Shown in pieces: positions 10,051 to 32,723 of a stretch of DNA of 33,430 nt. A program made the translations under genes and the position numbers. This DNA is from an uncultured Cytophagales bacterium (GTDB lineage: Bacteria > Bacteroidota > Bacteroidia > Cytophagales > UBA9547). Where the stretch lies: positions 1-33,430 of the forward strand of contig CAMFLX010000041.1 of assembly GCA_945957555.1 (NCBI GenBank), written 5' to 3'. Below the pieces are notes generated by a model that had not been told where the DNA came from, did not search any database, and saw nothing but the letters and a program-made list of their open reading frames with translations. Each line of letters begins with the position of its first letter. The first letter of the stretch is position 1.

Positions 10051-10132
10051 AAATTTACTTTAATATAGGGTGAATGAATTGAGTTACAAGGAGTGTTTTA
10101 CGTCCTTTAAAGTCCATAAACCATTAAGACTT

Positions 10133-12670
10133 ATGAAAAGAATTGTTTTCCAGATTATGCTATTAATCAGTGTTTTATTCTCAAAGCACCTACTGGCCCA
10201 GCCAGGGGAAAATGATAGTAGCTTCAATCCTGATGATATAGGTTTGGGTTATGGAAGTGGCGCCAGTGGTGCTGTCTATGTTTCACTGGTACAATCTGAT
10301 GGCAAAATTATTGTTGGCGGAATTCTGACAGAATATGACAATGTCTTAAGTTCGTGCATTGCTCGTCTCAATCCGGATGGGAGTCGCGATGCGGGTTTTT
10401 TAGTTGGGAGTGGGGCTAGTGGTAATAATTCAAATATTAAAGCCCTTGCCATTCAGAACGACGGGAGAATTCTCGTTGGCGGCGTATTCAATAAATTCAA
10501 TTCAGCAAGTAGGCAATCTTTGACCAGGCTTAATCCTGATGGGAGCCTTGATAATAGTTTTGCAACTAGTATAGAAGCGAATAGCGTTATCACAACAGTT
10601 GCTGTTCAGAGTGATGGTAAAATTATAATAGGTGGGGAGTTTTACGATCAGGATTTAAACATTTGGCATTTGGCTAGGTTAAATAGAAATGGAAGTTTTG
10701 ATACAACATTTGCTATTAAAAAAGGCCCAGACAAAATAGTACTCGCCTCTGCTATTCAAAACGATGGCAAGATTTTAATTGCAGGAGAATTTAACTTATT
10801 TGATGGGGTCGCCAAAAACTACATTGCAAGACTAAACAATGATGGTAGTATTGATACCTCCTTTAAGGCGATCGTCGGTTCTGATAAGAGAATACTATCA
10901 CTTAAAATCCAATCTGATAATAAAATATTGGCGGGGGGGGATTTTACCAAGTTTGAAGGTATGGATCGAGGTCATATTGCACGCTTGAATACCGACGGCA
11001 CCATTGATGCCACTTTTGGGCTGGGGCTGGGAGCAAATAATGCTGTTAATAGCATCACTGTACAACCTTCTGATGGAAAAATTGTAATTGGAGGAGTCTT
11101 TACTTCTGTAAACAGTAAGAATACGAATTATGTTACTAGGCTAAATGTTGATGGAAACCCTGATGCCTCTTTTAATGTCGGAGCAGGAGCGAACAATCCA
11201 ATATACTCAACTGCGATTCAGTCAGATGGTAGGATATTAATTGGTGGTACATTTACTACCTATAATAATATTGCAAGGAGTTATATCGCAAGACTAAATA
11301 CTAACGGAAGCATTAATTTACCTTTTAATTTAGGTTCAGGAGCAAGCCTAACGGTAAACACAACAACTTTACAACCAGATGGTAAAGTGATTATTGGTGG
11401 TCAGTTTACTATGTATAATGGTGCACTGAGAAATCGCCTTATTAGACTGCATACCGATGGACGTGTAGATCCGACATTTTATGTAGGCACAGGGGTAGAT
11501 GCGACAGTGTATTCAAGTGCGTTACAGGCCGATAATAAGGTTGTAGTAGCAGGTGATTTCTCAAAATACAATGAAACTAAGATCAATTCGATTGCAAGGC
11601 TTAATAATGATGGTACTCTAGATACGTCCTTTAACGTTGGCTTGGGGGCTAGAAAAAATATAAGTACCACTCAAGTTCGTGTGGTACTTACTACAGCGAT
11701 TCAAAATGATGGTAAAATCTTGCTGGGAGGTCAATTTATCTATTATAACGGTATTGATAGGAAGTATTTAGCGAGACTTAATAGTAATGGAAGCCTTGAT
11801 ACTACTTTCAAATTGGGTATTGGCCCAAATGATTATGTTACCGCTATTGCTCAACAAAGTGATGGTAAGGTTGTCATTGGAGGGAATTTTACGACAATAA
11901 ACTCCGTGAAGAGAAGTAAAATTGCACGACTTAATCAAGATGGAAGTTTGGATACAAATTTTGATCCAGGGGCAGGTGCCAATGCCACTGTATTGGCCAT
12001 TGCGATACAGAAAGACGGAAAGATCATCATAGGGGGTGATTTTACTACCTTTAACAATATTAGTAGCCCCAGTCTAGCCAGATTGAATATTGATGGAAGC
12101 TTTGATGCCCCTTTCACACAAGCAGCTGGACCAACTGGTTCTGTTCAGGTTATAAAAATTCAATCGGATGATAAAATTTTGATTGGTGGAAGTTTCTATT
12201 CTTACAATGGAAAGGACCGTAAGTCTATTGCGAGAATCAACCCAGATGGAAGTCTTGATGAGTCTTTCAACCCAGATGGTACTGGTGCTAATAATACCGT
12301 ATTTGCGATGGCAATACAACCTGACGATAAAGTTATTTTTGCAGGAAATTTTACAGCTTATAATGATGCGGGAAGAAATAGATTGGCTAGAGCCATACTT
12401 ACTGGTACAGATGTGGCAGTGCATGATTCCAAAATTACTTCGGAACTCAGTGCGTATCCTAACCCTACCAAAGGGGAATTTCGCCTGAATCTTAAAAATG
12501 GCAATTATCAAATTAGTATTACCAACTCTATGGGCAAAGTTTTGGAAACGGTGGATTTGGTGAATGCCAATTCTGCTGATTTTAACATCGATGCCCCGGA
12601 AGGACTTTATTTCATCTCTGTGAAAAATTCGCAGGGAGGGTCCAGAATCTTAAAAGTCGTTAAAGAATAA
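10133..12670 (+). CDS. Secreted delta-60 repeat protein with T9SS type A sorting domain
   Basis: About 845 residues from ATG 10133, which begins a signal peptide (MKRIVFQIMLLISVLFSKHL, cleavage after LLAQ). The frame is open from GTG 10070, but that would put 21 polar residues before the signal. I count 14 tandem delta-60 repeats of about 50-58 residues, each built on Q-SDGKI-IGG-FT-YN, IARLN-DGS and D-SF. They should form a beta-propeller or beta-solenoid-like surface. The last ~80 residues are a Por/T9SS type A sorting domain (AYPNPTKGEFRLNL, then EGLYFISVK and RILKVVKE). The protein is predicted to leave the cell through type IX secretion and be anchored or released. It stands alone with no operon partner. 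The ligand or role is unknown. Confidence 0.88.
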   Translation: MKRIVFQIMLLISVLFSKHLLAQPGENDSSFNPDDIGLGYGSGASGAVYVSLVQSDGKIIVGGILTEYDNVLSSCIARLNPDGSRDAGFLVGSGASGNNSNIKALAIQNDGRILVGGVFNKFNSASRQSLTRLNPDGSLDNSFATSIEANSVITTVAVQSDGKIIIGGEFYDQDLNIWHLARLNRNGSFDTTFAIKKGPDKIVLASAIQNDGKILIAGEFNLFDGVAKNYIARLNNDGSIDTSFKAIVGSDKRILSLKIQSDNKILAGGDFTKFEGMDRGHIARLNTDGTIDATFGLGLGANNAVNSITVQPSDGKIVIGGVFTSVNSKNTNYVTRLNVDGNPDASFNVGAGANNPIYSTAIQSDGRILIGGTFTTYNNIARSYIARLNTNGSINLPFNLGSGASLTVNTTTLQPDGKVIIGGQFTMYNGALRNRLIRLHTDGRVDPTFYVGTGVDATVYSSALQADNKVVVAGDFSKYNETKINSIARLNNDGTLDTSFNVGLGARKNISTTQVRVVLTTAIQNDGKILLGGQFIYYNGIDRKYLARLNSNGSLDTTFKLGIGPNDYVTAIAQQSDGKVVIGGNFTTINSVKRSKIARLNQDGSLDTNFDPGAGANATVLAIAIQKDGKIIIGGDFTTFNNISSPSLARLNIDGSFDAPFTQAAGPTGSVQVIKIQSDDKILIGGSFYSYNGKDRKSIARINPDGSLDESFNPDGTGANNTVFAMAIQPDDKVIFAGNFTAYNDAGRNRLARAILTGTDVAVHDSKITSELSAYPNPTKGEFRLNLKNGNYQISITNSMGKVLETVDLVNANSADFNIDAPEGLYFISVKNSQGGSRILKVVKE

Positions 12671-16838: not shown

Positions 16839-17055
16839 CACGCGGTGCTAGATATTTATATCCATCAAAATTCTTGGTTTATTTCTTCTGACATTGTCAG
16901 TATTTAGTCCGCGTTTCACATTCAACAATTCTGTCTGAGAGACCTTACAAGTTTCTATAGTATTCCAATTGTGCCCAGAGCACCTGCATGGTAATCCAGT
17001 AGCTGGATTTGACATTATTATTTCAAATCATTTCTAATGTTAATATGTGCATACA
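16839..17055 (+). promoter_or_regulatory. Long untranslated leader with hairpins ahead of the RtcB-PrfH operon
   Basis: Right after the leader ORF, ACGCGG (16840-16845) is complementary to CCGCGT (16909-16914). Between them CTGAC (16888-16892) and GTCAG (16896-16900) form a tight 3-nt-loop hairpin. Later, CCAGTAGCTGG (16996-17006) and GTGCCCAGAGCAC (16973-16985) can also fold locally. The region is less AT-rich than neighbouring gaps. There is no convincing second promoter close to the operon start, which supports a long leader. No riboswitch class that I know fits. Confidence 0.4.
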
Positions 17056-17793
17056 ATGGCAACAAGCGATTGGGAATATTTCACCCAATGCAGTCGTCTC
17101 AAATCGGAACGAACTAAAAGGCGACTGCAAAAAACGGAACACGACAAAAAGTTAATCCATTTACACAAAGAGCTCCAGAGGATTAATGAGGCTCAAAAAC
17201 ATCTCGGATTGGTAGCACTCAATCCTCCCATTCAAAAAGGATGGAAAAGGTATTTTGTGTTGAGACCAGACGTTGGAAGAAGCAAAGATGCTGTGTTTTT
17301 CCAAGAGCTTCTCAATAAGATCAATGCTATCGATTACAGCGACCGCAAAGACTTCAAGGTCAAACGAAGGAGATTCGGGAGGAAAACCTACGAGGTAAAG
17401 CCCAAAAGAGTCAGTGAATTTTGCGATTGGCAGTTCCATAAATTAAAATTAACAGAAAAGGAAAAGCTTTATTTCAAGAAAGAATGGAGGCTTTATCACA
17501 AAAGTACAGGTGTCTATAAGGTTTATGTATTTACAGAGCCTTGGCGATTTGTCCCAGTGGTAAAGCCTAATATTATCACTCACGCAAAAACGATAGATCC
17601 CTTGTTGGAACAGGAAGAAGATGAGATTGAAAACTATTTAGACCGCAACTTCTTGAGACCAAGACTAGGAAAAATAGTCTTTGGGGAATTCAAATATCGG
17701 GATCGTTGGAAGATTTGCGATAAAGCAAAGTACAATTACATTATTAAAGAAAACCTCCACATAAAACAGGCGAGGTTTGAATTAGAAGATTAA
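17056..17793 (+). CDS. Uncharacterised basic protein, first gene of the RtcB-PrfH operon
   Basis: About 245 residues from ATG 17056; a GTG at 17047 would add MHT. I recognise no named domain. The protein is rich in Lys and Arg, with basic clusters in the N-terminal helix (LKSERTKRRLQKTEHDKK) and mid-protein (KVKRRRFGRKTYEVKPKR), and many aromatic residues (WKRYFVLRPD, WRLYHKSTGVYKVYVFTEPW). An acidic helix near residue 190 (LLEQEEDEIENYLDRNF) breaks the pattern. There is no signal peptide or membrane segment. Three cysteines (in FTQCSR, EFCDWQ, KICDK) are too scattered for an obvious zinc site. It ends 5 bp before rtcB, so co-translation is likely. An RNA- or ribosome-binding accessory role is inferred from charge and context only. 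Confidence 0.85.
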   Translation: MATSDWEYFTQCSRLKSERTKRRLQKTEHDKKLIHLHKELQRINEAQKHLGLVALNPPIQKGWKRYFVLRPDVGRSKDAVFFQELLNKINAIDYSDRKDFKVKRRRFGRKTYEVKPKRVSEFCDWQFHKLKLTEKEKLYFKKEWRLYHKSTGVYKVYVFTEPWRFVPVVKPNIITHAKTIDPLLEQEEDEIENYLDRNFLRPRLGKIVFGEFKYRDRWKICDKAKYNYIIKENLHIKQARFELED

Positions 17794-17798
17794 AATAC

Positions 17799-19205
17799 AT
17801 GAGCAATCACAAGTTACGAGGTAAGGACCTCAATAATATAGGATATGACAATGATGCATCAAGAAGCATAGCTATGACGCTATCACTGAGGCATTTCAAG
17901 CATACTCCTAAAACAGAAATATTGGAAATATTTCAACAAGTAAAAGAAAATCCAGAGGCATATCTGGAGCATGAGCATTTGGCCCAGTTGGCTGGTACAT
18001 TCGTAACCAAAAGCAAACTCAAGGAGTTCGAAGAATACCACCTCTTGGAAAAAGGCGGATATCTCAAGACCTATGGTGCGAAACACATAGAGGCTTCTGC
18101 TAAACGACAAATGGAAATAGCCATGACCCTACCCGTGAGTTTAAACGGCGCTTTGATGCCCGACGCACACAGTGGTTATGGTTTGCCCATCGGCGGAGTG
18201 TTAGCAGTACAAAACGCAGTGATTCCCTTCGGAGTGGGAGTTGACATTGGTTGCCGGATGGCACTCAGTATTTATGATCTCTCTGAGAAATACATTCAAC
18301 ACCAAAGTTATCAGTTGAAAACGGCTCTTAAAGATTTTACCCATTTTGGTATGGATGGATCTTTGGAGTTTGCACAAGAGCACGAAGTATTGGATCGGGA
18401 AGAGTTTAGGCAAACAGAACTTTTGAGAAAATTGCATGGCAAAGCGGTAAAACAATTGGGCACTTCAGGAGGCGGGAATCATTTTGTGGAGTTTGGTGTG
18501 ATAGAACTAAATGAGCATAACACCTTGGGAATACCTACTGGCAAATATGCAGCCTTACTTTCGCACTCAGGATCAAGGGGGTTAGGGGCAAATGTCGCCC
18601 AGTACTACACGAAGATTGCGATGGAAGTTTGTAAGTTGCCAAAACATGCGCAGCACTTGGCATGGTTGGATCTCAATACTGCTGAAGGGCAAGAGTATTG
18701 GATGAGCATGAACCTTGCAGGCGATTATGCTAAGGCCTGTCATGACCAAATCCATACCAATTTAAGCAAAGCTCTCGGCATTAAACCCATTGCAAAAGTG
18801 GAAAATCACCACAATTTTGCTTGGAAGGAACTCGATCATGAGAGTAAGGAAGTGATTGTGCATCGCAAAGGCGCAACTCCTGCTCACAAAGGCGAATTGG
18901 GCATCATACCGGGTAGTATGACCCATGGTGGATATTTGGTTTCTGGCAAAGGTATACCAGAATCACTTAATTCTGCTTCTCACGGAGCCGGTAGGGCTAT
19001 GTCTCGTAGCAAAGCCAAAGAAACCTTTACGGTTTCTGCCTTTAAGAAAATGGTGACAACTGCTGGAGTAACCTTGATCGGTGGTAGCCCAGAAGAATGC
19101 CCAACAGCGTACAAAAACATAGACGAAGTGATGGCTGCCCAAGATACACTGGTAGACATTCACGGGAAATTTATTCCTAAAATAGTAAGAATGAATAAAG
19201 AGTAG
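17799..19205 (+). CDS. rtcB: RtcB-family 3'-phosphate RNA ligase (RtcB2 type by context)
   Basis: A 468-residue protein with the full RtcB active site. D149 and C152 lie in GVGVDIGCRM, H228 in GTSGGGNHF, H256 in LSHSGSRGLG, H355 in EVIVHRKGATPAHKG, and H395 in SASHGAGR, the histidine that takes GMP in the family. PDAHSGYGLPIGGV (121-134) is also diagnostic. RtcB joins RNA 2',3'-cyclic phosphate or 3'-phosphate ends to 5'-OH ends using GTP and Mn2+. The gene abuts prfH (TAG then ATG with no gap). In other bacteria RtcB2 paired with PrfH repairs 16S rRNA cut in the decoding centre. No archease or RtcR gene is nearby. The substrate is inferred from prfH. Confidence 0.95.
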   Translation: MSNHKLRGKDLNNIGYDNDASRSIAMTLSLRHFKHTPKTEILEIFQQVKENPEAYLEHEHLAQLAGTFVTKSKLKEFEEYHLLEKGGYLKTYGAKHIEASAKRQMEIAMTLPVSLNGALMPDAHSGYGLPIGGVLAVQNAVIPFGVGVDIGCRMALSIYDLSEKYIQHQSYQLKTALKDFTHFGMDGSLEFAQEHEVLDREEFRQTELLRKLHGKAVKQLGTSGGGNHFVEFGVIELNEHNTLGIPTGKYAALLSHSGSRGLGANVAQYYTKIAMEVCKLPKHAQHLAWLDLNTAEGQEYWMSMNLAGDYAKACHDQIHTNLSKALGIKPIAKVENHHNFAWKELDHESKEVIVHRKGATPAHKGELGIIPGSMTHGGYLVSGKGIPESLNSASHGAGRAMSRSKAKETFTVSAFKKMVTTAGVTLIGGSPEECPTAYKNIDEVMAAQDTLVDIHGKFIPKIVRMNKE

Positions 19206-19817
19206 ATGGAGAAGATCTTACAAATCACATCAGGGCAAGGCCCCGTAGAATGTGAACGAGTAGTAGCCTTGGTACTGTCAAAAATGATGTCCGAAGCCAA
19301 AAAACAAAACTTAGAATGTAAAGTAGTAGAGTCAGTGGCAGGAGTAGCTGCTGGTACTTTATTTTCTGCATTACTTCTGGTAAAAGGTAACAATATGGCC
19401 GAATTTTGTGATGCATGGACAGGAACGATCCAGTGGATTGCGCAAAGTCCTTATCGCAAATACCACAAGAGGAAAAATTGGTTTGTGGGCATTACAGCTC
19501 ATGATATTACAAAAATCGCCACTTGGAATGAAAAGGATGTGATCTACCAAACGATGCGTGCTTCTGGACCTGGCGGACAGAACGTGAACAAGGTAGAAAC
19601 GGCTGTAAGAGCTACGCACATCCCTTCAGGCACATCTGTTACTGCCTCATCTGAACGTTCACAACTTATGAATAAAAAGGAGGCGACAGAAAAGCTCAAA
19701 GCCAAACTGATGAGCTGGCATATAGAGGAAGCCAATAAACACATTAGGGAAAAATGGATGGAGCACAATACCCTTGAGAGGGGTAATGCCATCAGAGTGT
19801 TCGAAGAAAGGCTTTAA
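19206..19817 (+). CDS. prfH: Peptide chain release factor homologue PrfH
   Basis: A 203-residue release-factor-like protein with the catalytic GGQ loop in RASGPGGQNVNKVETAVRAT (GGQ 123-125). The codon-recognition domain of RF1/RF2 is absent; instead a short N-terminal domain (KILQITSGQGPVECERVV) and a mid-region YRKYHKRKNWFVGI, both typical of PrfH, are present. PrfH releases the nascent peptide from ribosomes whose 30S decoding centre has been cleaved, so that the partner RtcB2 can religate the rRNA. The ATG follows the rtcB stop immediately, so the two are translationally coupled. A strong terminator at 19859 closes the operon. Confidence 0.93.
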   Translation: MEKILQITSGQGPVECERVVALVLSKMMSEAKKQNLECKVVESVAGVAAGTLFSALLLVKGNNMAEFCDAWTGTIQWIAQSPYRKYHKRKNWFVGITAHDITKIATWNEKDVIYQTMRASGPGGQNVNKVETAVRATHIPSGTSVTASSERSQLMNKKEATEKLKAKLMSWHIEEANKHIREKWMEHNTLERGNAIRVFEERL

Positions 19818-24402: not shown

Positions 24403-24438
24403 AAAGAAAAGCCGCGAGTTCTCTCACGGCTTTTCTTT
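24403..24438. terminator. Strong hairpin terminator after the HD-Pnk gene
   Basis: AAAGAAAAGCCG (24403-24414) pairs perfectly over 12 bp with CGGCTTTTCTTT (24427-24438); an inner GAG/CTC adds three pairs. Flanking A and T runs give a U-tract on the minus strand, right at the HD-Pnk stop codon. Confidence 0.88.
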
Positions 24439-25543
24439 ATGAAATACAAACCAATTCCAGTTCATGCACCTCCCAATCCTTGGGCACCTCCAGTTTTTGG
24501 ATCATGTATTCGATCGCATCGCTGGGGATTGCGTAGTCCCTATTGCGATTCTGCGACAACAATTGACTATAGGGTACTTCCAAATAAATGAGCTTGATCT
24601 TGGCATGATATGTTGTAAAGAGATCAACCAATTGCTCTCGCATCTGCAGGGTAATATTGGTGGCGTTCCATACAAAGGGCGTCCGACTACGCAAATATTC
24701 CTTAGCCAGCTCCTTCGCTTTTTGGATCACGCGCCCACTCCCTACCTTGTCACCATACACTACTCCCATCTCGCGACGTAGATCGTCCAAAGAAACCACT
24801 TTGTGGCTGGGGAAGTTTTTCTTAAGATAGTGATCTTTGCCACTTCCCGCAATACCTGCCAACATTACAACCTCTGTTTTGGTATCGTCAAAAGGTAAAT
24901 AGTCTGGACTCTGATCTTCCTTTCTAAAATATCCAAACTTACTGAGTGCAGAAGGAAAGGCCCTGGGCTTGCCCCAACAATCGTTTTCCAGACAAAGCTC
25001 CTTAAAGAGCGCTATCTTGTATAGCAAGTCAGCTTGATCTTGGCAAATCCTTCCTAAAACATCAGCCTTGGCTAATATAGCTACCCATTCCGTATTCACC
25101 TCAAAGCTGGCTTTTAGCAAAGTCTTTTGAGGATTTGGTTTCTCCAAAGCCCAAAGTGGAAGCCCATGATGACGTACTAAGCCTACTATACTTTCTCTGA
25201 TCGCAAATGGCGTAACAAAATCTCGGTACAAGAGCTGCCGAGCTGTCATCGCTCCCTTCTTTGCATGACCAGGAGACACAATACTGCCATCATCCAAAGT
25301 ACTAGTGGTAGAGCGTTTTTCCACATCGTGCAAGAGTGCCGCAGCCCAAAGGACCTCTTGAGCTTGCGACTCCAAAGCCTGAAACTCTTCCAAGTTCTCT
25401 AGGGCTTTCAGTACCATTTGTGTGTGGACAGCCACATCACCCTCTGCATGGTGTATGGGGCTTTGGGGTACGCCATGCATATCTTTCACCCAATCGTAGT
25501 GACTGAGCGACGCCCATGATTTATCCTTACTGATTGTCCACAT
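24437..25543 (-). CDS. HD-Pnk: bifunctional RNA/DNA end-healing enzyme (HD phosphoesterase + 5'-OH kinase)
   Basis: About 368 residues from ATG 25543; TTG 25552 would add MRK. The N-terminal HD domain has HHAEGDVAVH, the signature ALLHDVEKR (H72, D73, K76), GHAKKG (H93), VRHHG (H125-H126) and AKADVLGR (D161), a full set of metal ligands. The C-terminal half is a P-loop kinase with GIAGSGKD (K236), then VVSLDDLR and WNATNIT as in polynucleotide kinases. This order is that of the HD-Pnk enzyme characterised from Runella slithyformis, which removes 2',3'-cyclic or 3'-phosphates and phosphorylates 5'-OH ends. The start lies inside the last codons of the RNA ligase gene (17-bp overlap), so the two are translationally coupled: heal, then seal. 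Confidence 0.92.
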   Translation of the reverse strand: MWTISKDKSWASLSHYDWVKDMHGVPQSPIHHAEGDVAVHTQMVLKALENLEEFQALESQAQEVLWAAALLHDVEKRSTTSTLDDGSIVSPGHAKKGAMTARQLLYRDFVTPFAIRESIVGLVRHHGLPLWALEKPNPQKTLLKASFEVNTEWVAILAKADVLGRICQDQADLLYKIALFKELCLENDCWGKPRAFPSALSKFGYFRKEDQSPDYLPFDDTKTEVVMLAGIAGSGKDHYLKKNFPSHKVVSLDDLRREMGVVYGDKVGSGRVIQKAKELAKEYLRSRTPFVWNATNITLQMREQLVDLFTTYHAKIKLIYLEVPYSQLLSQNRNRDYAIPSDAIEYMIQKLEVPKDWEVHELELVCIS

Positions 25544-26231
25544 TTTTCTCAAAGTTTAAAGGGGCACGTTTCCAATTGCGTGTCCAGTGTTCATCCGTTT
25601 TCACATGACCTTTGCGCACGTATTTAAACACATGGTTTTGAAAGTCATCCACTGCATAACCCTCTATATTCCTGCTTACCACGCCTTCCATAGTGCAAGG
25701 TTTTTGTTGCAGGATGTCGCTAGAGCCAAACACACTTGCTTGTTTTACAAGTGCTAGCACACCTTGTTCGTAGGTTTGCTGATCATCACCAGGTTCTACC
25801 GTTTGCAAAACAGGTACCGTAGGAAAATCAAAACAAGCCGCATAGAACTTGGTTTCCTCCCAAGAAAGCCACTGTTCGTGTAGCCTTACGCCAAACACAT
25901 AATAGTGGCTGTCGAGATTTTCGTATTTGATGGAGTGAATGGCATACAAGTTCTCTCCAAAGAGTTCCAGATCGCCGAGATCGTTTTTGAGTAGCTCCCA
26001 CTTTTCGCGTAAGAAACGCGTCCAAGGCGTAGTAGAAGGTGCCGCATGTGAGCGAGCAAAGACCCCATAGCGACTCAGACAGTTGTTTTCCCCATCGAGT
26101 TTCTCTGTGTGAATCACCGTTTTGATCTTGCGAACCGCAGCCCAATAGTCATGGCTGATGCGGTCGTCGCTGGTAGTACCCGGCGAAAAGGGATAATGAT
26201 AAGTACGACCATATTTTCTAGAAATAGACAT
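25527..26231 (-). CDS. ATP-dependent RNA ligase partner of HD-Pnk
   Basis: About 234 residues from ATG 26231. The frame is open to 26291, but the added 20 residues precede the conserved MSISRKYGRTYHYPFSPGT. All nucleotidyltransferase motifs are visible: motif I TEKLDGEN with lysine K44, motif III ELFGEN (89-94), IIIa YVFGVR (111-116), IV MEGVVSR (181-187) and V FKYVRK (202-207). It should form an enzyme-AMP adduct and seal 3'-OH to 5'-phosphate RNA ends. It is short, with no extra C-terminal domain. The gene overlaps HD-Pnk by 17 bp and is the first gene of the pair. Promoter elements before it are unclear. Confidence 0.9.
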   Translation of the reverse strand: MSISRKYGRTYHYPFSPGTTSDDRISHDYWAAVRKIKTVIHTEKLDGENNCLSRYGVFARSHAAPSTTPWTRFLREKWELLKNDLGDLELFGENLYAIHSIKYENLDSHYYVFGVRLHEQWLSWEETKFYAACFDFPTVPVLQTVEPGDDQQTYEQGVLALVKQASVFGSSDILQQKPCTMEGVVSRNIEGYAVDDFQNHVFKYVRKGHVKTDEHWTRNWKRAPLNFEKNVDNQ

Positions 26232-26415
26232 AATCTTAAAGATTAAAATAAAACATAATACTATAGCAGGCACCTTAATGATAAGGTGCAAAGAGGCATT
26301 AAAAACCCTGCGAATGCATTACATGACTATGTCCTTTGAGCAAGTGAATATAAAATTGAGTATCAGAGATACTCTATAAGCTTCAAAATTACAAAATGTT
26401 TTTGTATTTATAGCA

Positions 26416-26862: not shown

Positions 26863-28497
26863 CTACCTTTTATACACCAATCTGGTCTGAATCCCCAAAT
26901 CAGTCTTACATTTCACAGCATATAAGCCCGCAGGAAGACCCACAATTTCAGCAGAAAGCGTAATCTCATTTTTGTCCATACCCTCTTTACGATACACTTG
27001 TTTGCCCTGTGCGTTATAAAGTTCCAACTCTAGAATCCTTGCCGGCGCTTGTATAGAAAGCACTTCGGTAAAAGGATTAGGATACAAATCTATCCCAGTT
27101 GCAGATTGCTGCTGCACAACATCAGTACCTGAAGAAACCACGCTACAGGTGCCTCCAAGGTTGTTATCCATCCAAGTAAGCCTATTGGCGATCCATGTTT
27201 TCAAAGTTTGCAACTCAGCGCTGTACGATGCCACTGTATAGGCGTTGAAATTACCAGGATTAGTACCCAAAATCTTCCATTTGGTAAAATGTCTTACCTG
27301 CGCTTGTGCCAGCGTGTCCAATGCATAACTATCCAAATAACTATTGATAGACGAAGTACTTAACAAGGAAGTCCTAAGCGACTGATAGCGACACTTCACT
27401 TGATTGGCAAAATTAGGATCTTGCAAAAGCCTAGACCAGAGTTTTGGCATAGGCAAGGTAGCAGGGTTGCAACCCACATACATCCAATCGGTATAGGTAC
27501 CACCTTGACAAAAGGAAGCATTGCCCAGTGCAAAATTATAATCCCACACAGGCCCAGCCTTAAATTTCCCTTTAGTGCCATCGAGCGCTCTTTTTTCTTT
27601 GTGGAAATAAGCACTAGCCTTATAACCATCCGTATTTTTCGTGAATTCAGTAATGATCAAGTAATCTATGAAAGACTGAGTACTGATATACTTAGCATAG
27701 CCCACAGAAGTATCTGCAAAATTGGCCGACTGGATAGCTGTCTCCATACTGTCTATAAAACTGTGAATATAAGCTTCCTGCTTTGGACGTATGTCCTCTG
27801 ATTTAGGGTAATGGTACAACCATACCACATCTTGATTGTTTGAAGACTTGTATTTCGATACAAAGCTCTTATCGGCAGTATTGTTTTTCTTGTCGATCTT
27901 CATGATGTAGCCACCCGTGAGGGGAGTGCCTACCGTGTCAGCAGAAGTCATCTTGGCTACATCCACCCTTTTGCCACCCCTTTTGATGGACTCTGTAAGA
28001 ATATAAATCCCCCGATATTCCCCATTCAGGATCACCTCACAGTACCTCGTGCGAGGGCCCCAATGGTCCATCTGGTTCCAGATTTTGTAAGTAAGCACGT
28101 TTCTGAGTAGAGATATATCGTTATAAGGCGCATAGAGGACCCAATCGTTATCCGCAGGCATACCTAGCAGTGGGTAGTCAAGATTTGCGTTCTTCACGCT
28201 GTCACGCGTTTCAAAGCCATACTGTTGCTGAGGGTAACTCTGTGAGCTGTTACCACGCACCTCGATACCAATGTTGTTGTTGTAATGGTAAGTCTTGTCC
28301 GATACATTGTTGATCTTACCCTTACCATTGTATATAACCTTGAGATTTACATTTACCTTGGGCTCATTAGCAATTGTTTGCCCTTTGGTGTTAATGATAA
28401 AAATCGGCAAATTGGACGACTGAAGCGTCACGTTTGTTTGTGAAACACATGCCAGCCATGTTGACAGCATCGTGCTTATTGTTAAAACTTTCTTCAT
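26863..28497 (-). CDS. CotH-family protein kinase, secreted, with T9SS type A sorting domain
   Basis: About 544 residues from ATG 28497; the frame extends to 28581, but ATG 28497 begins a signal peptide (MKKVLTISTMLSTWLACVSQ). The CotH core is present: GIEVRGNSSQSYPQQQYGFE, LLRNVLTYKIW, EVILNGEYRGIYILTESIK, and GPVWDYNFALGN (314-325), which holds the metal-binding Asp. CotH proteins are atypical kinases; the Bacillus member phosphorylates spore coat proteins. The last ~80 residues are a T9SS sorting domain (LYPNPFTEVLSIQAP, then LPAGLYAVKCK and TRLVYKR). It closes the envelope operon, 85 bp after the DUF2490 gene. An extracellular protein kinase or structural surface protein is expected. The substrate is unknown. 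Confidence 0.88.
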   Translation of the reverse strand: MKKVLTISTMLSTWLACVSQTNVTLQSSNLPIFIINTKGQTIANEPKVNVNLKVIYNGKGKINNVSDKTYHYNNNIGIEVRGNSSQSYPQQQYGFETRDSVKNANLDYPLLGMPADNDWVLYAPYNDISLLRNVLTYKIWNQMDHWGPRTRYCEVILNGEYRGIYILTESIKRGGKRVDVAKMTSADTVGTPLTGGYIMKIDKKNNTADKSFVSKYKSSNNQDVVWLYHYPKSEDIRPKQEAYIHSFIDSMETAIQSANFADTSVGYAKYISTQSFIDYLIITEFTKNTDGYKASAYFHKEKRALDGTKGKFKAGPVWDYNFALGNASFCQGGTYTDWMYVGCNPATLPMPKLWSRLLQDPNFANQVKCRYQSLRTSLLSTSSINSYLDSYALDTLAQAQVRHFTKWKILGTNPGNFNAYTVASYSAELQTLKTWIANRLTWMDNNLGGTCSVVSSGTDVVQQQSATGIDLYPNPFTEVLSIQAPARILELELYNAQGKQVYRKEGMDKNEITLSAEIVGLPAGLYAVKCKTDLGIQTRLVYKR

Positions 28498-28582
28498 AAA
28501 TATATGTAATTGTCTATTTTTTACTATTATTAAATACTGCGTTGGCTGTACTTGGCCAATCATTAACCAAGGCCAATCCATT

Positions 28583-29254
28583 TCAAAAGGTGAATTTGTA
28601 CGAGAAGCCCATAATGTACGACCGCACAGGGTCAGGCTCGTTAAATTCCCTCTGATGCATCAGATAGATGTAGACCTTGTGGTGTTTGTTCAAGCCATAA
28701 GCCACACCCGCCGTATAGCGCACCCTATTGGCTTCACTTTTATCGTACTTGACCTGATAGTACAGCTCAGAACTCACATACGGCGCGTACCGCTTGTCCA
28801 GATCCAAAGAAACTTCCGCTTTGCACCGAAAATAGTCACTTGGTATGTACCCTTTCTCTGAAGTTTGGAGCGCTGTATACTGCCGCTGGTACCTGAACCT
28901 AGGCTCGAATACGATTCTTTTTAGAAACTTTTTCCTAAAGCCCAGATCAAAGCTTACCCGATCTCTAGGGTTAAAGTAAGGGCTGATCTCCCGTTTTCCA
29001 GAATGTCGGTACTGCAACCCTAGGCTGATCCACTTTTTAGGTTTAAACTCCGCACCTACAGCCACATAATAAGTTTCCAAGCGACTCATGTTTTCGCCAA
29101 TCCTAGAACAGGCTTCTACATTTGCCGAAAACTTCCGATTGATCTTTTTCTCTACCGTAGCCTTGAGCCATAACCTTACATCGTTCATTTGAGTCCAACC
29201 CAACTGTACGACCAAGAGTAGGAGCAGTAGTGTTTTATTTCTTTTTCTCACCAC
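28583..29254 (-). CDS. DUF2490-family outer membrane beta-barrel protein
   Basis: A 223-residue protein with a signal peptide (MVRKRNKTLLLLLLVVQLGW, cut near TQ). DVRLWLKATVEKKINRKFS is the DUF2490 opening, followed by alternating strands with many Tyr/Arg (WISLGLQYRHSG, RIVFEPRFRYQRQYTAL, YAPYVSSELYYQVKYD) and a terminal aromatic (GFSYKFTF) typical of outer membrane barrels. The start is a GTG at 29254, within the end of the DUF4956 gene (20-bp overlap). The barrel may be a channel or anchor for the products of the operon. Function is not known for the family. Confidence 0.82.
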   Translation of the reverse strand: MVRKRNKTLLLLLLVVQLGWTQMNDVRLWLKATVEKKINRKFSANVEACSRIGENMSRLETYYVAVGAEFKPKKWISLGLQYRHSGKREISPYFNPRDRVSFDLGFRKKFLKRIVFEPRFRYQRQYTALQTSEKGYIPSDYFRCKAEVSLDLDKRYAPYVSSELYYQVKYDKSEANRVRYTAGVAYGLNKHHKVYIYLMHQREFNEPDPVRSYIMGFSYKFTF

Positions 29255-30002
29255 GATAAAATATTTCCAAGGCGGCGATGTCTCTTACGAAATCAATTTT
29301 TGTGACCGTCACTTTATAGATATCCAGTCCAGTTCGTGTTCTCAAATCCTCCAGCAAGTCATCGTTGTGCTCAGGTTTGATGAGCTGTATGTTTTCGTAC
29401 AATACCGCTTTAGAAAACTGCCTTTTGATCAAGATGTTGCCGTCGAGCAAGAATGTAGCCAAGATCAAAATCCCACAAATGACAGACATAGGCACGAGAC
29501 CGATCCTGATCGCACAAATCAAACCAATGGCGATCACGATGAAGAGATAGGTCATGTCTTTGGTAGAAATACCCTCCGTCCTGTACCTCAGCATGGAAAA
29601 CACTGCAAACAAACCGAAAGCAGCCCCAGTGGAAAACTTGATATTATTCATTACCAAGGTGAGCAAGAAAATCACCAAGTTAAAAGAGAAATAAGTAAAG
29701 ATGATCTCCGTTTTGTGGTAATTGTTGATATAGATCAGCCCAATGATGATCAATACCGATGCGATATTAATCCCTAGGCCTATGAAAAACTCTGCATCTA
29801 TGCGTACCTCATCCTCCTTTTTATCCTTGTCGTCGTCGTCTTTCTTTTTCTTCTTCTTTTTGTCTTTGCCATCCTCGGAAGACTCCACATCAATAGTGGC
29901 ACTATGTTTAGCTTCAACCACCACATCGTTTTGGGCCAGTGCTATTCCGCTGTCAAAAAGGCCTAAAACCACTACCAACATTAAAAAATACTTACGCAAC
30001 AT
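29235..30002 (-). CDS. DUF4956 membrane protein with Lys/Asp tract
   Basis: A 255-residue protein with an N-terminal signal or anchor (MLRKYFLMLVVVLGLFDSGI), then a charged tract at residues 40-65 with seven lysines in a row (48-54) and four aspartates (55-58). Three or four membrane helices follow (FFIGLGINIASVLIIIGLIY, FNLVIFLLTLVM). The DUF4956 signature AVFSMLRYRTEGISTKDMTY (residues about 133-152) and a cytosolic C-terminal domain (LIKPEHNDDLLEDLRTRTGL) complete it. In bacteria DUF4956 genes sit with VTC-domain and CotH genes, as here. It overlaps the VTC gene by 11 bp and is overlapped by the DUF2490 gene by 20 bp. It probably forms the membrane part of a polyphosphate-linked complex; this is inferred from the neighbours. 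Confidence 0.88.
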   Translation of the reverse strand: MLRKYFLMLVVVLGLFDSGIALAQNDVVVEAKHSATIDVESSEDGKDKKKKKKKDDDDKDKKEDEVRIDAEFFIGLGINIASVLIIIGLIYINNYHKTEIIFTYFSFNLVIFLLTLVMNNIKFSTGAAFGLFAVFSMLRYRTEGISTKDMTYLFIVIAIGLICAIRIGLVPMSVICGILILATFLLDGNILIKRQFSKAVLYENIQLIKPEHNDDLLEDLRTRTGLDIYKVTVTKIDFVRDIAALEIFYRGEKKK

Positions 30003-30753
30003 GTTTAATTTTATTTATGTACAATAATTGGGGTTTGAAATTGTTCTGTTTAATATCGGGGTTAAAGCTCACCACACCCAAGCAATACTTGCTCAAGCCA
30101 CCCTCTCTGATACCCAGTTGCCTCATGAGGGTACTCACTATAGAGCTAGTACTCTTTTCCTGTTTCAACTCTAATATGATCACGTGCGAATAATCTTTGA
30201 AGTCACCATTCCTTACAAATTGTAAGTTCAAGTCTATGGTACAACGAACCTTCGCTTCCAGGTTTACCAAAGTAGCGCGGTGATAGTTCACCCAAAACTG
30301 AGGCATGAAATATTCCGAACCATAACCCGTCTGAACCTGCAAAAACTCAGATTGCAGATCGCAGTCCTTAATATCGTCCACGATTTCCTCTATTTTGATC
30401 CGCGTCTTTACCGTGCGGCCTTTGTTGTTTTTAAGTTTCACCTCCAAGAAGTTGATCCCCGACTCTACATAGTTGCGCGACCTCACCTTATGCCTATTGC
30501 TTTTTCTAGCTTGGTGCTTGTGGTATAGATCAAACTTGGGCGTATCGTAGTACAAGGTCTCATACCTGCTCATTCGAGTACCTTCCACTTCCAATACCTT
30601 AAAATGCCCCTGCAAAAGCTCCAGTATCTCAGGCAAGCGTTCCGCACCAAACACATATTTAGTATCAGTACGGTCCATCAGCTTCACCGAATCCATCTCC
30701 TTGAGTGAGATCTTCGGATAGTTCACCAATATGTTATTTATGGATTCAGACAT
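29992..30753 (-). CDS. VTC-domain polyphosphate polymerase-like protein
   Basis: A 253-residue protein with a VTC domain of the triphosphate tunnel fold. Signatures in order are MDRTDTKYVFGAERL, YETLYYDTPKFDLYHKHQAR, the basic strand RHKVRSRNY, FLEVKLKNNKGRTVKTRI, FWVNYHRATLVN, VRCTIDLNLQF, VIILELKQ and GLSKYCLGVV. Conserved Lys/Arg pairs and Glu in EVKLK and ELK would bind phosphate and metal in the tunnel. In yeast Vtc4 this domain makes polyphosphate from ATP; bacterial relatives are not well studied. It has no signal peptide, so it acts in the cytoplasm. Its ATG overlaps the stop of the preceding gene (TAATG), and it overlaps DUF4956 by 11 bp. Confidence 0.9.
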   Translation of the reverse strand: MSESINNILVNYPKISLKEMDSVKLMDRTDTKYVFGAERLPEILELLQGHFKVLEVEGTRMSRYETLYYDTPKFDLYHKHQARKSNRHKVRSRNYVESGINFLEVKLKNNKGRTVKTRIKIEEIVDDIKDCDLQSEFLQVQTGYGSEYFMPQFWVNYHRATLVNLEAKVRCTIDLNLQFVRNGDFKDYSHVIILELKQEKSTSSIVSTLMRQLGIREGGLSKYCLGVVSFNPDIKQNNFKPQLLYINKIKHVA

Positions 30754-31322
30754 TATTTAAATGTATAGCTATAAACCTTTTTACCAATCAACCTATTCTC
30801 CGCATCGTAAGTAAGTCTCTCTTTTTTGAGACCTTTACTGTCGTAACTGTAGACAGACTTCTCCACCAAAGTGCCCTTGCCGTCATACACCGTTTCAGTA
30901 GTTTTTTCGCCGTAAGCGTTGTAGGCAGTCACTTCCTTTTTCAAGATCGAACCCTTCGCATCATAGGTCAATTCCTCTATCTTATCCCCGTTGCTATTAT
31001 ACTTGTACTCTTCCCTTTTCTTGATGGTACCATCCGCATTGTAAAACACATGCTCTACCCTGTCGCTGTTTTTATTGTACTTGTAAGTAGCCTTCTCCTC
31101 CAATTTATTGTTGACATAGACAGACTTTTCTATCACATTGCCGTTGTCGTCGTACACCTCCACCTCTTTTTTGACGATAGTTTTACCATCCTCCACCTTG
31201 GTAGCCTCCGTGCTCAGCGACTTGATCTTGTTCTTCTTGATATTCGCCTTGCTTTGGGCAGCTAGGCCCATACTTACGCCTATCATCAACCCTATTATAA
31301 TCCCTTTCAACCCTGCAGCCAT
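30753..31322 (-). CDS. Secreted YD/YwqK-like repeat protein
   Basis: A 189-residue protein with a signal peptide (MAAGLKGIIIGLMIGVSMGL, cut after AAQ). The rest is made of tandem units of about 20-23 residues with the pattern Y-D/N-xxG-xxxxKxVY, for example VYDDNGNVIEKSVYVNN, FYNADGTIKKREEYKYN, TYDAKGSILKKEVTAYN and YDGKGTLVEKSVYSYD. These resemble YD/RHS or YwqK-type antitoxin-like beta repeats. It is located in the periplasm or at the cell surface. The ATG follows the stop of the lipoprotein gene directly (TAAATG), and its own stop overlaps the VTC start, so it is part of the operon. The molecular role is unknown. Confidence 0.78.
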   Translation of the reverse strand: MAAGLKGIIIGLMIGVSMGLAAQSKANIKKNKIKSLSTEATKVEDGKTIVKKEVEVYDDNGNVIEKSVYVNNKLEEKATYKYNKNSDRVEHVFYNADGTIKKREEYKYNSNGDKIEELTYDAKGSILKKEVTAYNAYGEKTTETVYDGKGTLVEKSVYSYDSKGLKKERLTYDAENRLIGKKVYSYTFK

Positions 31323-32723
31323 TTAGTCAATCAATTCAAAATTAATGTCCGTCACATTCCCGTCATTCACCGTCACATTCTTTTTGATCGCAATCACCTT
31401 AGGTTGATCCGGATCGGTCAGTGAAAGCTCATTTTTGGAAATCACATACACGATATAGTTACCATTGGGCAATTCCCTAAACTCATAAGTGCCCCCATCT
31501 GAGCTTGAAGTTTTATCAAAATACCCTTTGCCGCCCTCTTTCATGATGAATACATCAAAACCAGCCGTAGGTCTAGAATTAGAGCAATTCGAAAACTCAG
31601 AATTACAGTCGATCACCCTTACCACACCCGATATTTTAAAAGGGCCCTCTACCAGTTCTCTCTTGTCTTCTTTTGCTAAGGTAATCACACCCATGTCAAT
31701 GCTTGCATTCGTTACCTCCAGCTCCTTCTTTACCACTATATGGTTAGCACCATTGGTCTGAGTGGTATCGCCTGAGTAGGCATACACTACATATTTGCCA
31801 GGCATGAGCTCTGGGAACATGAAGTCTCCCTTATAGTCGGTACTCACCTTGTCCAAGTACCCGCTCTCGCCCACACGTGCAATATACACATCCTCATCAG
31901 CCAATACCGATTTCACGGTTTTCACACTGAAGGTCTCATCATAGTACTGCGCCCATACTTGGCCCTTTATCGAATATTGACCCACCCTTTTGTCCTCCTT
32001 GGCAATGACCAGATTGCCGATATTTGCATCAGCACTGGTAAGCGTCACCTGTATTTGCGATACCGACTCTCCCGTGGCAGAAGTATGGTTGGTATCTTTA
32101 GAGATCGCGTAAATCGTGTAGTCGCCCGCAGGTAAACTCGTAAACACAAAGGAACCATTGAGCATGGTTGTTTCTTTTTTAAACATCAAAGGATCGCTAC
32201 CCTCCTTGATTAAGTATACATCTTGATCTACCAAGTAGCCAGAGCCCGTTTTTACCGTAAAGTTTTCGTTGTAAAAGTACCCGAATACCTTACCACTGAT
32301 ATTAAAGCCGCCCTCGTCCAGCTTCCGTTTGTCTTCAAGTGCTATGACAAACGGACTCAGCGTTACATCAGAAGTCAGGTCCACATTTTGCACTACAGTG
32401 ATGTCTTCAGAAGCAGAGCCACCTGTGGTGTCCTTGGAGTACACATATACCTTGTAGTTGCCAGACCTTAAGTATTTAAACTCAAACTCACCCTCGTAGT
32501 CCGTCTTGGTTTTATCACCGATGCCAACGTTGTCGCCATAGATCAGATACACATCCAAGTCTGCCCCAGGCCGCTGTTGTGTATACTTACTAAGATTGTT
32601 GCTGTAATATCTCGCCCTCACAGAGCCCTTAATGCCCAACTTGCCACCTTTCCCCTCTTCCTTTTTGCAAGAAAGTACCATGAACCAGATGCTACTGGCC
32701 AGTAGAATATGAATAATTTTCAA
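31323..32723 (-). CDS. Lipoprotein with four carboxypeptidase-regulatory/CNA-B-like repeats
   Basis: A 466-residue protein, first gene of the envelope operon. The N-terminus MKIIHILLASSIWFMVLSCK carries a lipobox (VLSC) followed by KKEEGKGG; charged residues right after the Cys are typical of lipoproteins exported to the surface in this phylum. The start is a TTG at 32723, since the first ATG lies inside the signal peptide. Four repeats of about 105-115 residues follow, each opening with a strand like ISGKVFGYFYNENF, then DVYLIKEG, a GSFVF-LPAGDY-IYAISKDT segment, and ending in VIAKEDKR (three of four). The repeats are likely beta-sandwich domains of the SdrD-B/carboxypeptidase-regulatory kind. 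A surface scaffold role is inferred. Confidence 0.82.
   Translation of the reverse strand: MKIIHILLASSIWFMVLSCKKEEGKGGKLGIKGSVRARYYSNNLSKYTQQRPGADLDVYLIYGDNVGIGDKTKTDYEGEFEFKYLRSGNYKVYVYSKDTTGGSASEDITVVQNVDLTSDVTLSPFVIALEDKRKLDEGGFNISGKVFGYFYNENFTVKTGSGYLVDQDVYLIKEGSDPLMFKKETTMLNGSFVFTSLPAGDYTIYAISKDTNHTSATGESVSQIQVTLTSADANIGNLVIAKEDKRVGQYSIKGQVWAQYYDETFSVKTVKSVLADEDVYIARVGESGYLDKVSTDYKGDFMFPELMPGKYVVYAYSGDTTQTNGANHIVVKKELEVTNASIDMGVITLAKEDKRELVEGPFKISGVVRVIDCNSEFSNCSNSRPTAGFDVFIMKEGGKGYFDKTSSSDGGTYEFRELPNGNYIVYVISKNELSLTDPDQPKVIAIKKNVTVNDGNVTDINFELID

Follow-up and report, generated by a model that had tools for sequence, protein, structure and literature searches.

The window analyzed here is the whole 33,430-nucleotide stretch of contig CAMFLX010000041.1 (assembly GCA_945957555.1) from an uncultured Cytophagales bacterium, and our subject is an operon at positions 26863–32723 in which a gene for a VTC domain protein, resembling the polymerase that makes polyphosphate, is accompanied by genes for a DUF4956 membrane protein, a DUF2490 barrel, a CotH kinase-fold protein, a lipoprotein, and a short-repeat protein. 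The open reading frame (ORF) list of the window confirmed that this region consists of six minus-strand ORFs (Table 1), as claimed in a preliminary description of the DNA. Starting at the lipoprotein gene, the junctions down to the DUF2490 gene measure 0, -1, -11, and -20 nucleotides (nt). The same description had counted five overlapping or abutting junctions, the fifth being that between the DUF2490 and CotH genes, where the gap is 1 nt only when CotH is started at the first ATG of its ORF (28581) and 85 nt when it is started at the signal-peptide-like MKKVLTISTML... (28497); because the latter is the likely start, the number is probably four. The order lipoprotein, YD protein, VTC, DUF4956, and DUF2490 with CotH was seen again in many Bacteroidota, and the arrangement is therefore not a matter of chance, with the nearest relative found in a Cytophagaceae metagenome-assembled genome (MAG; locus L111). 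The operon is real, and the earlier observation stands with small corrections. An Rfam search returned 0 elements, and promoter and terminator scans gave nothing above chance. A phage origin was rejected, as the PHROGs matches were to unnamed families only, for the CotH and lipoprotein chains.

Table 1. Genes and domains of the operon (window coordinates).
Feature	Position	Strand	Remarks
Lipoprotein	31323..32723	-	466 aa, lipobox-like LSC
Secreted YD/MORN-like short-repeat protein	30753..31322	-	189 aa, lineage-restricted operon member
Cytoplasmic VTC (Vtc4-type triphosphate tunnel metalloenzyme) polyphosphate polymerase-like protein	29992..30753	-	253 aa
DUF4956 inner-membrane protein	29235..30002	-	Signal-peptide-like N-terminus, 5 transmembrane helices, C-terminal ACT-like domain
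DUF2490 outer-membrane beta-barrel	28583..29254	-	Nearest structures KdgM/NanC
CotH kinase-fold protein	26863..28497	-	N-terminal signal sequence, C-terminal type IX secretion system tail
CotH kinase domain	27169..28266	-	Conserved D (TKNTDGY) and WD (GPVWDYN) motifs
Type IX secretion system type A sorting tail	26881..27087	-	TIGR04183 / PF18962

The families named in the preliminary description, namely VTC, DUF4956, DUF2490, and CotH with a type IX secretion system (T9SS) tail, agreed with the Pfam and NCBIfam profiles. The VTC protein matched PF09359 in Pfam (E=1e-32), and a profile built from its relatives and searched against the PDB found yeast Vtc4 at E=7e-21, the matches at E<=0.01 being Vtc2, Vtc3, and Vtc4 chains only, with no CYTH hydrolases. 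An absence of the tunnel residues had been named in the preliminary description as one finding that would refute its interpretation; on alignment, the Vtc4 catalytic and tunnel residues were all found to be kept, with R91, R93, E195, S221, and K222 of the window protein aligning with R264, R266, E426, S457, and K458 of Vtc4 and being at least 90% conserved in the bacterial relatives. Three of them, Vtc4 R264, R266, and E426, are those mutated to inactivate the VTC complex (PMC9911596), and the inactive mutant chain 7ytj_D has A, A, and N in exactly the columns of R91, R93, and E195, so that the alignment checks itself. According to Pfam, the protein comprises the VTC domain only, with no SPX or transmembrane (TM) domain, and it is therefore not a eukaryotic-type Vtc4. 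Its assignment as a putative polyphosphate polymerase is sound and well supported by homology.

The DUF4956 protein (Pfam, E=2e-46) was modeled with AlphaFold2 as five TM helices (70–187) followed by a C-terminal alpha-beta ACT-like domain, with a mean predicted local distance difference test score (pLDDT) of 81.5. Its RYRT motif is near-invariant, and the two arginines of that motif, R139 and R141, are invariant in a broad alignment. Comparison by hhalign of the broad DUF4956 profile with a 4-sequence MgtC profile gave a probability of 95.7%, whereas an unrelated membrane family used as a control reached 0.2%; a narrow DUF4956 profile (A3) gave no MgtC match, and PF02308 (MgtC/SapB) was unmatched, DUF4956 being the sole Pfam family at E<=0.01. 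For that reason, the protein can be called MgtC-like and is not filed as MgtC. The C-terminal part is weakly similar to the RelA/SpoT ACT domain (E=0.08). The protein thus appears to be distantly MgtC-like, with a predicted architecture of five TM helices and a C-terminal ACT-like domain as in MgtC/SapB, and the streptococcal DUF4956 homologue has likewise been described as an MgtC TM region with an ACT domain (PMC12345266). Given the signal-peptide-like N-terminus and the five helices, the ACT-like domain would lie on the cytoplasmic side, next to VTC. Searches with the model gave no convincing full-length match in Foldseek and only short partial matches in VIA-align, results from which no absence is concluded.

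For the DUF2490 protein (Pfam, E=7e-24), a 12-strand barrel was modeled with a pLDDT of 93.8, and its best structural matches were KdgM and NanC (Z 16.0; root-mean-square deviation 2.3 over 156 residues), which are porins specific for acidic oligosaccharides (PMC4849052). A sequence match to the KdgM family was absent, Pfam giving only DUF2490 and a sub-threshold OMP_b-brl. Five arginines (R51, R99, R119, R143, and R179) are near-invariant, and in the model they point into the barrel; the VTC-linked members of the family gain R83 and K145 and have E123 replaced by Q. The predicted barrel is compatible with a polyanion conduit.

The CotH protein matched PF08757 at E=1e-61, and its tail exceeded the cut-offs of both the T9SS type A profile TIGR04183 (32.9 bits, cut-off 23; NCBIfam) and Por_Secre_tail (36 bits, cut-off 27; Pfam). 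Linked CotH kinase domains matched Bacillus CotH (5JD9) with a profile E=7e-49, and D290 and W318-D319 were near-invariant on alignment to 5JD9. A crude test assigned a secretion or lipoprotein signal to 62 of the 64 linked CotHs and a T9SS-like tail to 39. The two remaining proteins, which the preliminary description had called a lipoprotein and a YD-like repeat protein, fared differently. The former name agrees with the lipobox-like LSC of a protein in which Pfam finds about four carboxypeptidase-regulatory-like/SdrD_B-like beta-sandwich repeats, its relatives being mostly single-domain proteins of 131–162 amino acids (aa); the YD label is weakly supported, as the repeat matches are weak (MORN_2 under the cut-off, and YD_repeat_2x with no single stretch passing alone).

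To find which of the genes travel together, as had been suggested beforehand, we surveyed 395 genomes of the phylum, in which VTC was detected in 57, DUF4956 in 88, and CotH in 135, together with the neighborhoods of 61 VTC loci from the sampled genomes and of 75 named loci. CotH was counted with a profile of the kinase domain only; an iterated full-length profile picked up T9SS tails. DUF4956 was present in all 57 VTC genomes (p=1.6e-46), and CotH was present in 55 of the 57 compared with 80 of the 338 genomes without VTC (p=2.8e-27), both values coming from a test that ignores shared ancestry. DUF4956 is directly preceded by VTC in 54/61 sampled and 70/75 named loci, and the ends of the two genes overlap in 29 and 54 of those, respectively. 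A CotH domain on the same strand within 8 kb was found in 26/61 sampled and 33/75 named loci, the chance expectation being about 1 locus in 61, as estimated from about three CotH genes per 4-Mb genome. Beside the VTC–DUF4956 pair, DUF2490 occurs in 18/61 sampled and 59/75 named loci, the lipoprotein in 7/61 and 32/75, and the YD protein in 3/61 and 31/75; the share of DUF2490 in the 75-locus set is biased upward because that set was gathered with DUF4956s close to the window copy. These counts indicate a core of VTC and DUF4956, with CotH as a frequent partner that is near-constant per genome and adjacent in less than half of the loci, and with the other three genes as a Bacteroidia-type extension. 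The six genes do not always occur together, DUF2490, the lipoprotein, and the YD protein being lineage-specific.

In the source genome, VTC, DUF4956, and CotH each have exactly two genes that exceed the cut-off, one in the window and one on contig C108. The copies on C108 belong to a second, complete paralogous operon, in which the order (L043) is an ASST-like T9SS protein, a 328-aa T9SS protein, CotH, lipoprotein, YD, VTC, DUF4956, and DUF2490. The ASST-like propeller of L043 has a T9SS tail, and in the Bacteroidota loci L061, L153, L168, and L177 comparable genes lie ahead of or next to CotH. Other neighbors of VTC–DUF4956 are Cthe_2159-type carbohydrate-binding beta-helix proteins (L059, L068, L080, and L081; by Pfam in L068 only and by look in the rest) and SdiA-regulated/phytase-like propeller genes (L069, L071, L086, and L087; L242 and L243; Bacteroidota and Alphaproteobacteria). 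In L224 (6919–7941) and L225, the gene after DUF4956 encodes a divergent CotH-like protein that goes unrecognized by Pfam. A contig titled as a Bifidobacterium breve MAG (L112) has a Bacteroidota-type DUF4956–DUF2490–CotH operon and is probably mis-binned.

The envelope part of the operon is replaceable. In 33 of the 61 loci, VTC–DUF4956 is accompanied not by DUF2490 but by a 350-aa protein, which is a divergent HlyD-type adaptor (HlyD_3 match in 16/30, best E=7e-12, some under the curated cut-off); one or the other is present in 51/61 loci and both together in none. Among 20 loci read from DUF4956 genomes without VTC, 12 have DUF4956, a 325–343-aa gene that is HlyD-like where tested, and a 410–441-aa protein for which an outer membrane efflux protein (OEP) match was obtained in 2/11 (best E=5e-5). 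One locus (L236:7137-9298) has DUF4956, a homologue of the phosphate-selective porin Porin_O_P, and CotH in a row; no porin O/P homologue was found in the source genome. Farther afield, the order is DUF4956, VTC, an inorganic phosphate transporter, and a phytase-like protein in the alphaproteobacterium Nitratireductor, and CotH, VTC, and DUF4956 in Deinococcus taeanensis. It is mainly because of these replacements and operon arrangements that we interpret DUF4956 as the part of an export route that sits in the inner membrane, and the trans-envelope machine proposed in the preliminary description is partly supported by them, through the exchange of barrel for adaptor and the DUF4956–HlyD–TolC-like operons. 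The loci L221–L223, L229–L235, L238, and L240, where DUF4956 precedes an HlyD-like gene of adaptor size and a divergent TolC/OEP-like gene and VTC is absent, seem to encode a tripartite exporter whose inner-membrane component is DUF4956. The L236 genome also has a separate VTC–DUF4956 locus, with an inositol-phosphate-synthase-like gene upstream in L236.

Judging from gene replacement, fold, and residues, we tentatively propose, with a confidence somewhat short of even, that the operon encodes a pathway for the synthesis and export of polyphosphate that is coupled to an extracytoplasmic CotH kinase; its synthesis part is well supported by homology, its export part is what we infer, and the use by CotH is speculative. 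In such a pathway, the cytoplasmic VTC protein would polymerize the phosphate of ATP into polyphosphate through a Vtc4-type tunnel, and DUF4956 would take the chain and move it through the inner membrane, replacing the TM part that eukaryotic Vtc4 has in its own chain. The arginine-lined DUF2490 barrel would be the outer-membrane exit, an HlyD-type adaptor serving instead in other lineages. Speculatively, the polyphosphate or its phosphate might then be used at the cell surface, where the lipoprotein, the short-repeat protein, and the CotH exported by the T9SS would act, and surface proteins or a matrix polymer would probably be phosphorylated or assembled. An extracytoplasmic kinase needs a donor other than cytosolic ATP, and polyphosphate from the same operon is an attractive candidate. 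That extracellular CotH is an ATP-free kinase supplied with polyphosphate via VTC, DUF4956, and the arginine-lined barrel or adaptor, and directed at surface proteins or the matrix, nevertheless seems to us quite improbable at present; if true, it would amount to a polyphosphate-powered trans-envelope phosphorylation system.

Several results weigh against this export pathway. Twelve-strand autotransporter barrels tie with KdgM/NanC within one Z unit, so that the DUF2490 fold alone is not specific, and 29 control DUF2490s unlinked to VTC carry the same arginines, which are family-wide, so that the idea of their being specific to the polyphosphate operon was rejected; the net inward charge of linked and unlinked members (6.7 vs 5.9) was not significantly different (p=0.21). 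A PPK1 homologue is also present in the source genome, and a general polyphosphate supply therefore does not require VTC. CotH is near VTC in just the minority of loci counted above, and 31 of the 88 DUF4956 genomes have no detected VTC. MgtC homologues, moreover, are known as regulators and not as proven channels. In Streptococcus intermedius, Pel amount and aggregation were altered when the DUF4956 and CotH homologues were deleted, whereas a deletion mutant of the VTC homologue showed no aggregation phenotype (PMC12345266).

The MgtC relation and the ACT-like domain, together with the occurrence of DUF4956 in genomes without VTC, would suit a regulatory module in which DUF4956 is an MgtC-like inner-membrane inhibitor or sensor that tunes the secretion or activity of its envelope partners without any export, the gating signal of its ACT domain being a ligand or VTC-made polyphosphate in the cytosol. 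The shift, rather than loss, of the amount of Pel in S. intermedius DUF4956-homologue mutants points the same way; however, the operon partners of DUF4956 are repeatedly periplasmic adaptors and outer-membrane channels, not regulators, which would be unexpected for a pure regulator, and we consider this explanation unlikely. We likewise give a low probability to the modification of a surface polymer or surface protein, in which the key product would be a phosphorylated matrix polymer or T9SS cargo made via CotH with another donor, VTC being only a local phosphate or nucleotide buffer. The genes for CotH, polyphosphate polymerase, DUF4956, and DUF4832 adjoin pel in streptococci and clostridia (PMC7112168), and several operons, the second one of the source genome among them, have T9SS cargo genes (an ASST-like propeller and a 330-aa protein) as neighbors of CotH; on the other hand, the partnership of VTC with DUF4956 is far stricter than that with CotH, and PelG was above the cut-off in none of 60 VTC genomes of the phylum, source genome included, for which reason a link to pel in this phylum was rejected. 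Least probable, in our estimation, is that the VTC-like protein belongs to the triphosphate tunnel enzymes but makes something else, acting for example as a triphosphatase or a cyclase as in CYTH, and that the exported species is not polyphosphate. Such enzymes are varied in activity (PMC8233210), and our literature search turned up no bacterial VTC protein that had been characterized biochemically; the restriction of the PDB matches to Vtc2/3/4 chains and the conserved Vtc4 catalytic set argue for the polymerase.

The clustering of VTC, DUF4956, and CotH claimed in the preliminary description is indeed known from pel loci of streptococci and clostridia; a Clostridium perfringens locus also holds VTC and CotH genes together (PMC2879425). 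The Gram-positive pel trio (SIR_1592, DUF4956/MgtC-ACT; SIR_1593, polyphosphate polymerase; SIR_1594, CotH) has the same three families in one operon and, like the window operon, a secreted CotH (PMC7112168, PMC12345266), whereas the latter operon has no pel genes and belongs to a Gram-negative envelope, with a DUF2490 barrel, a lipoprotein, a repeat protein, and a T9SS-secreted CotH. The authors of PMC12345266 did not find the trio outside pel; our data show that it often occurs without pel in Bacteroidota and that it is also present in Deinococcus. The core trio was thus already known, and its outer-membrane forms outside pel appear to be undescribed. The window polymerase shares the catalytic residues of the eukaryotic VTC complex (Vtc4, PMC9911596) and would resemble it in cytoplasmic synthesis beside a membrane partner, but it is without SPX and TM domains, and its partner DUF4956 is of a different family. 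In a laboratory strain of Bacteroides thetaiotaomicron, BT3498-BT3499 are adjacent DUF4956 and DUF2490 genes as in the window; they are listed only as a pair responding to iron, the change not being significant, and no function is proposed for them (PMC10434189). KdgM/NanC porins share with the DUF2490 model a 12-strand monomeric barrel and inward arginines, although DUF2490 has no Pfam match to that family and its arginines are general to DUF2490. Bacillus spore CotH (5JD9) has the same kinase domain and conserved active-site aspartate motifs, while the CotHs considered here are extracytoplasmic, with a T9SS or lipoprotein signal.

Bacterial polyphosphate is usually credited to PPK enzymes and regarded as cytoplasmic. 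If the proposed pathway is true, a widespread operon, given VTC in 57/395 genomes of the phylum, would be a dedicated polyanion export route, the orphan family DUF4956 would gain a role as a transport component, and the question of what powers secreted CotH kinases in places without ATP would have a possible answer. The CotH–VTC–DUF4956 trio is, contrary to an earlier suggestion, not tied to the Pel polysaccharide.

Elsewhere in the window, the plus strand carries at 17799–19817 an RtcB RNA ligase gene and, directly after it, the gene for peptide chain release factor H (PrfH), which matched TIGR03072 at 250 bits. The two make an RNA-repair/ribosome-rescue pair, upstream of which lies an uncharacterized 248-aa gene (17047–17793). 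On the minus strand (24437–26291), an RNA ligase (PF09414) gene overlaps by 26 nt that for an HD-domain and AAA_33 polynucleotide-kinase-like protein, making a second RNA-repair pair. The plus-strand gene at 10070–12670 encodes a protein that has 12 Delta-60 repeats (TIGR02608) and a T9SS tail.

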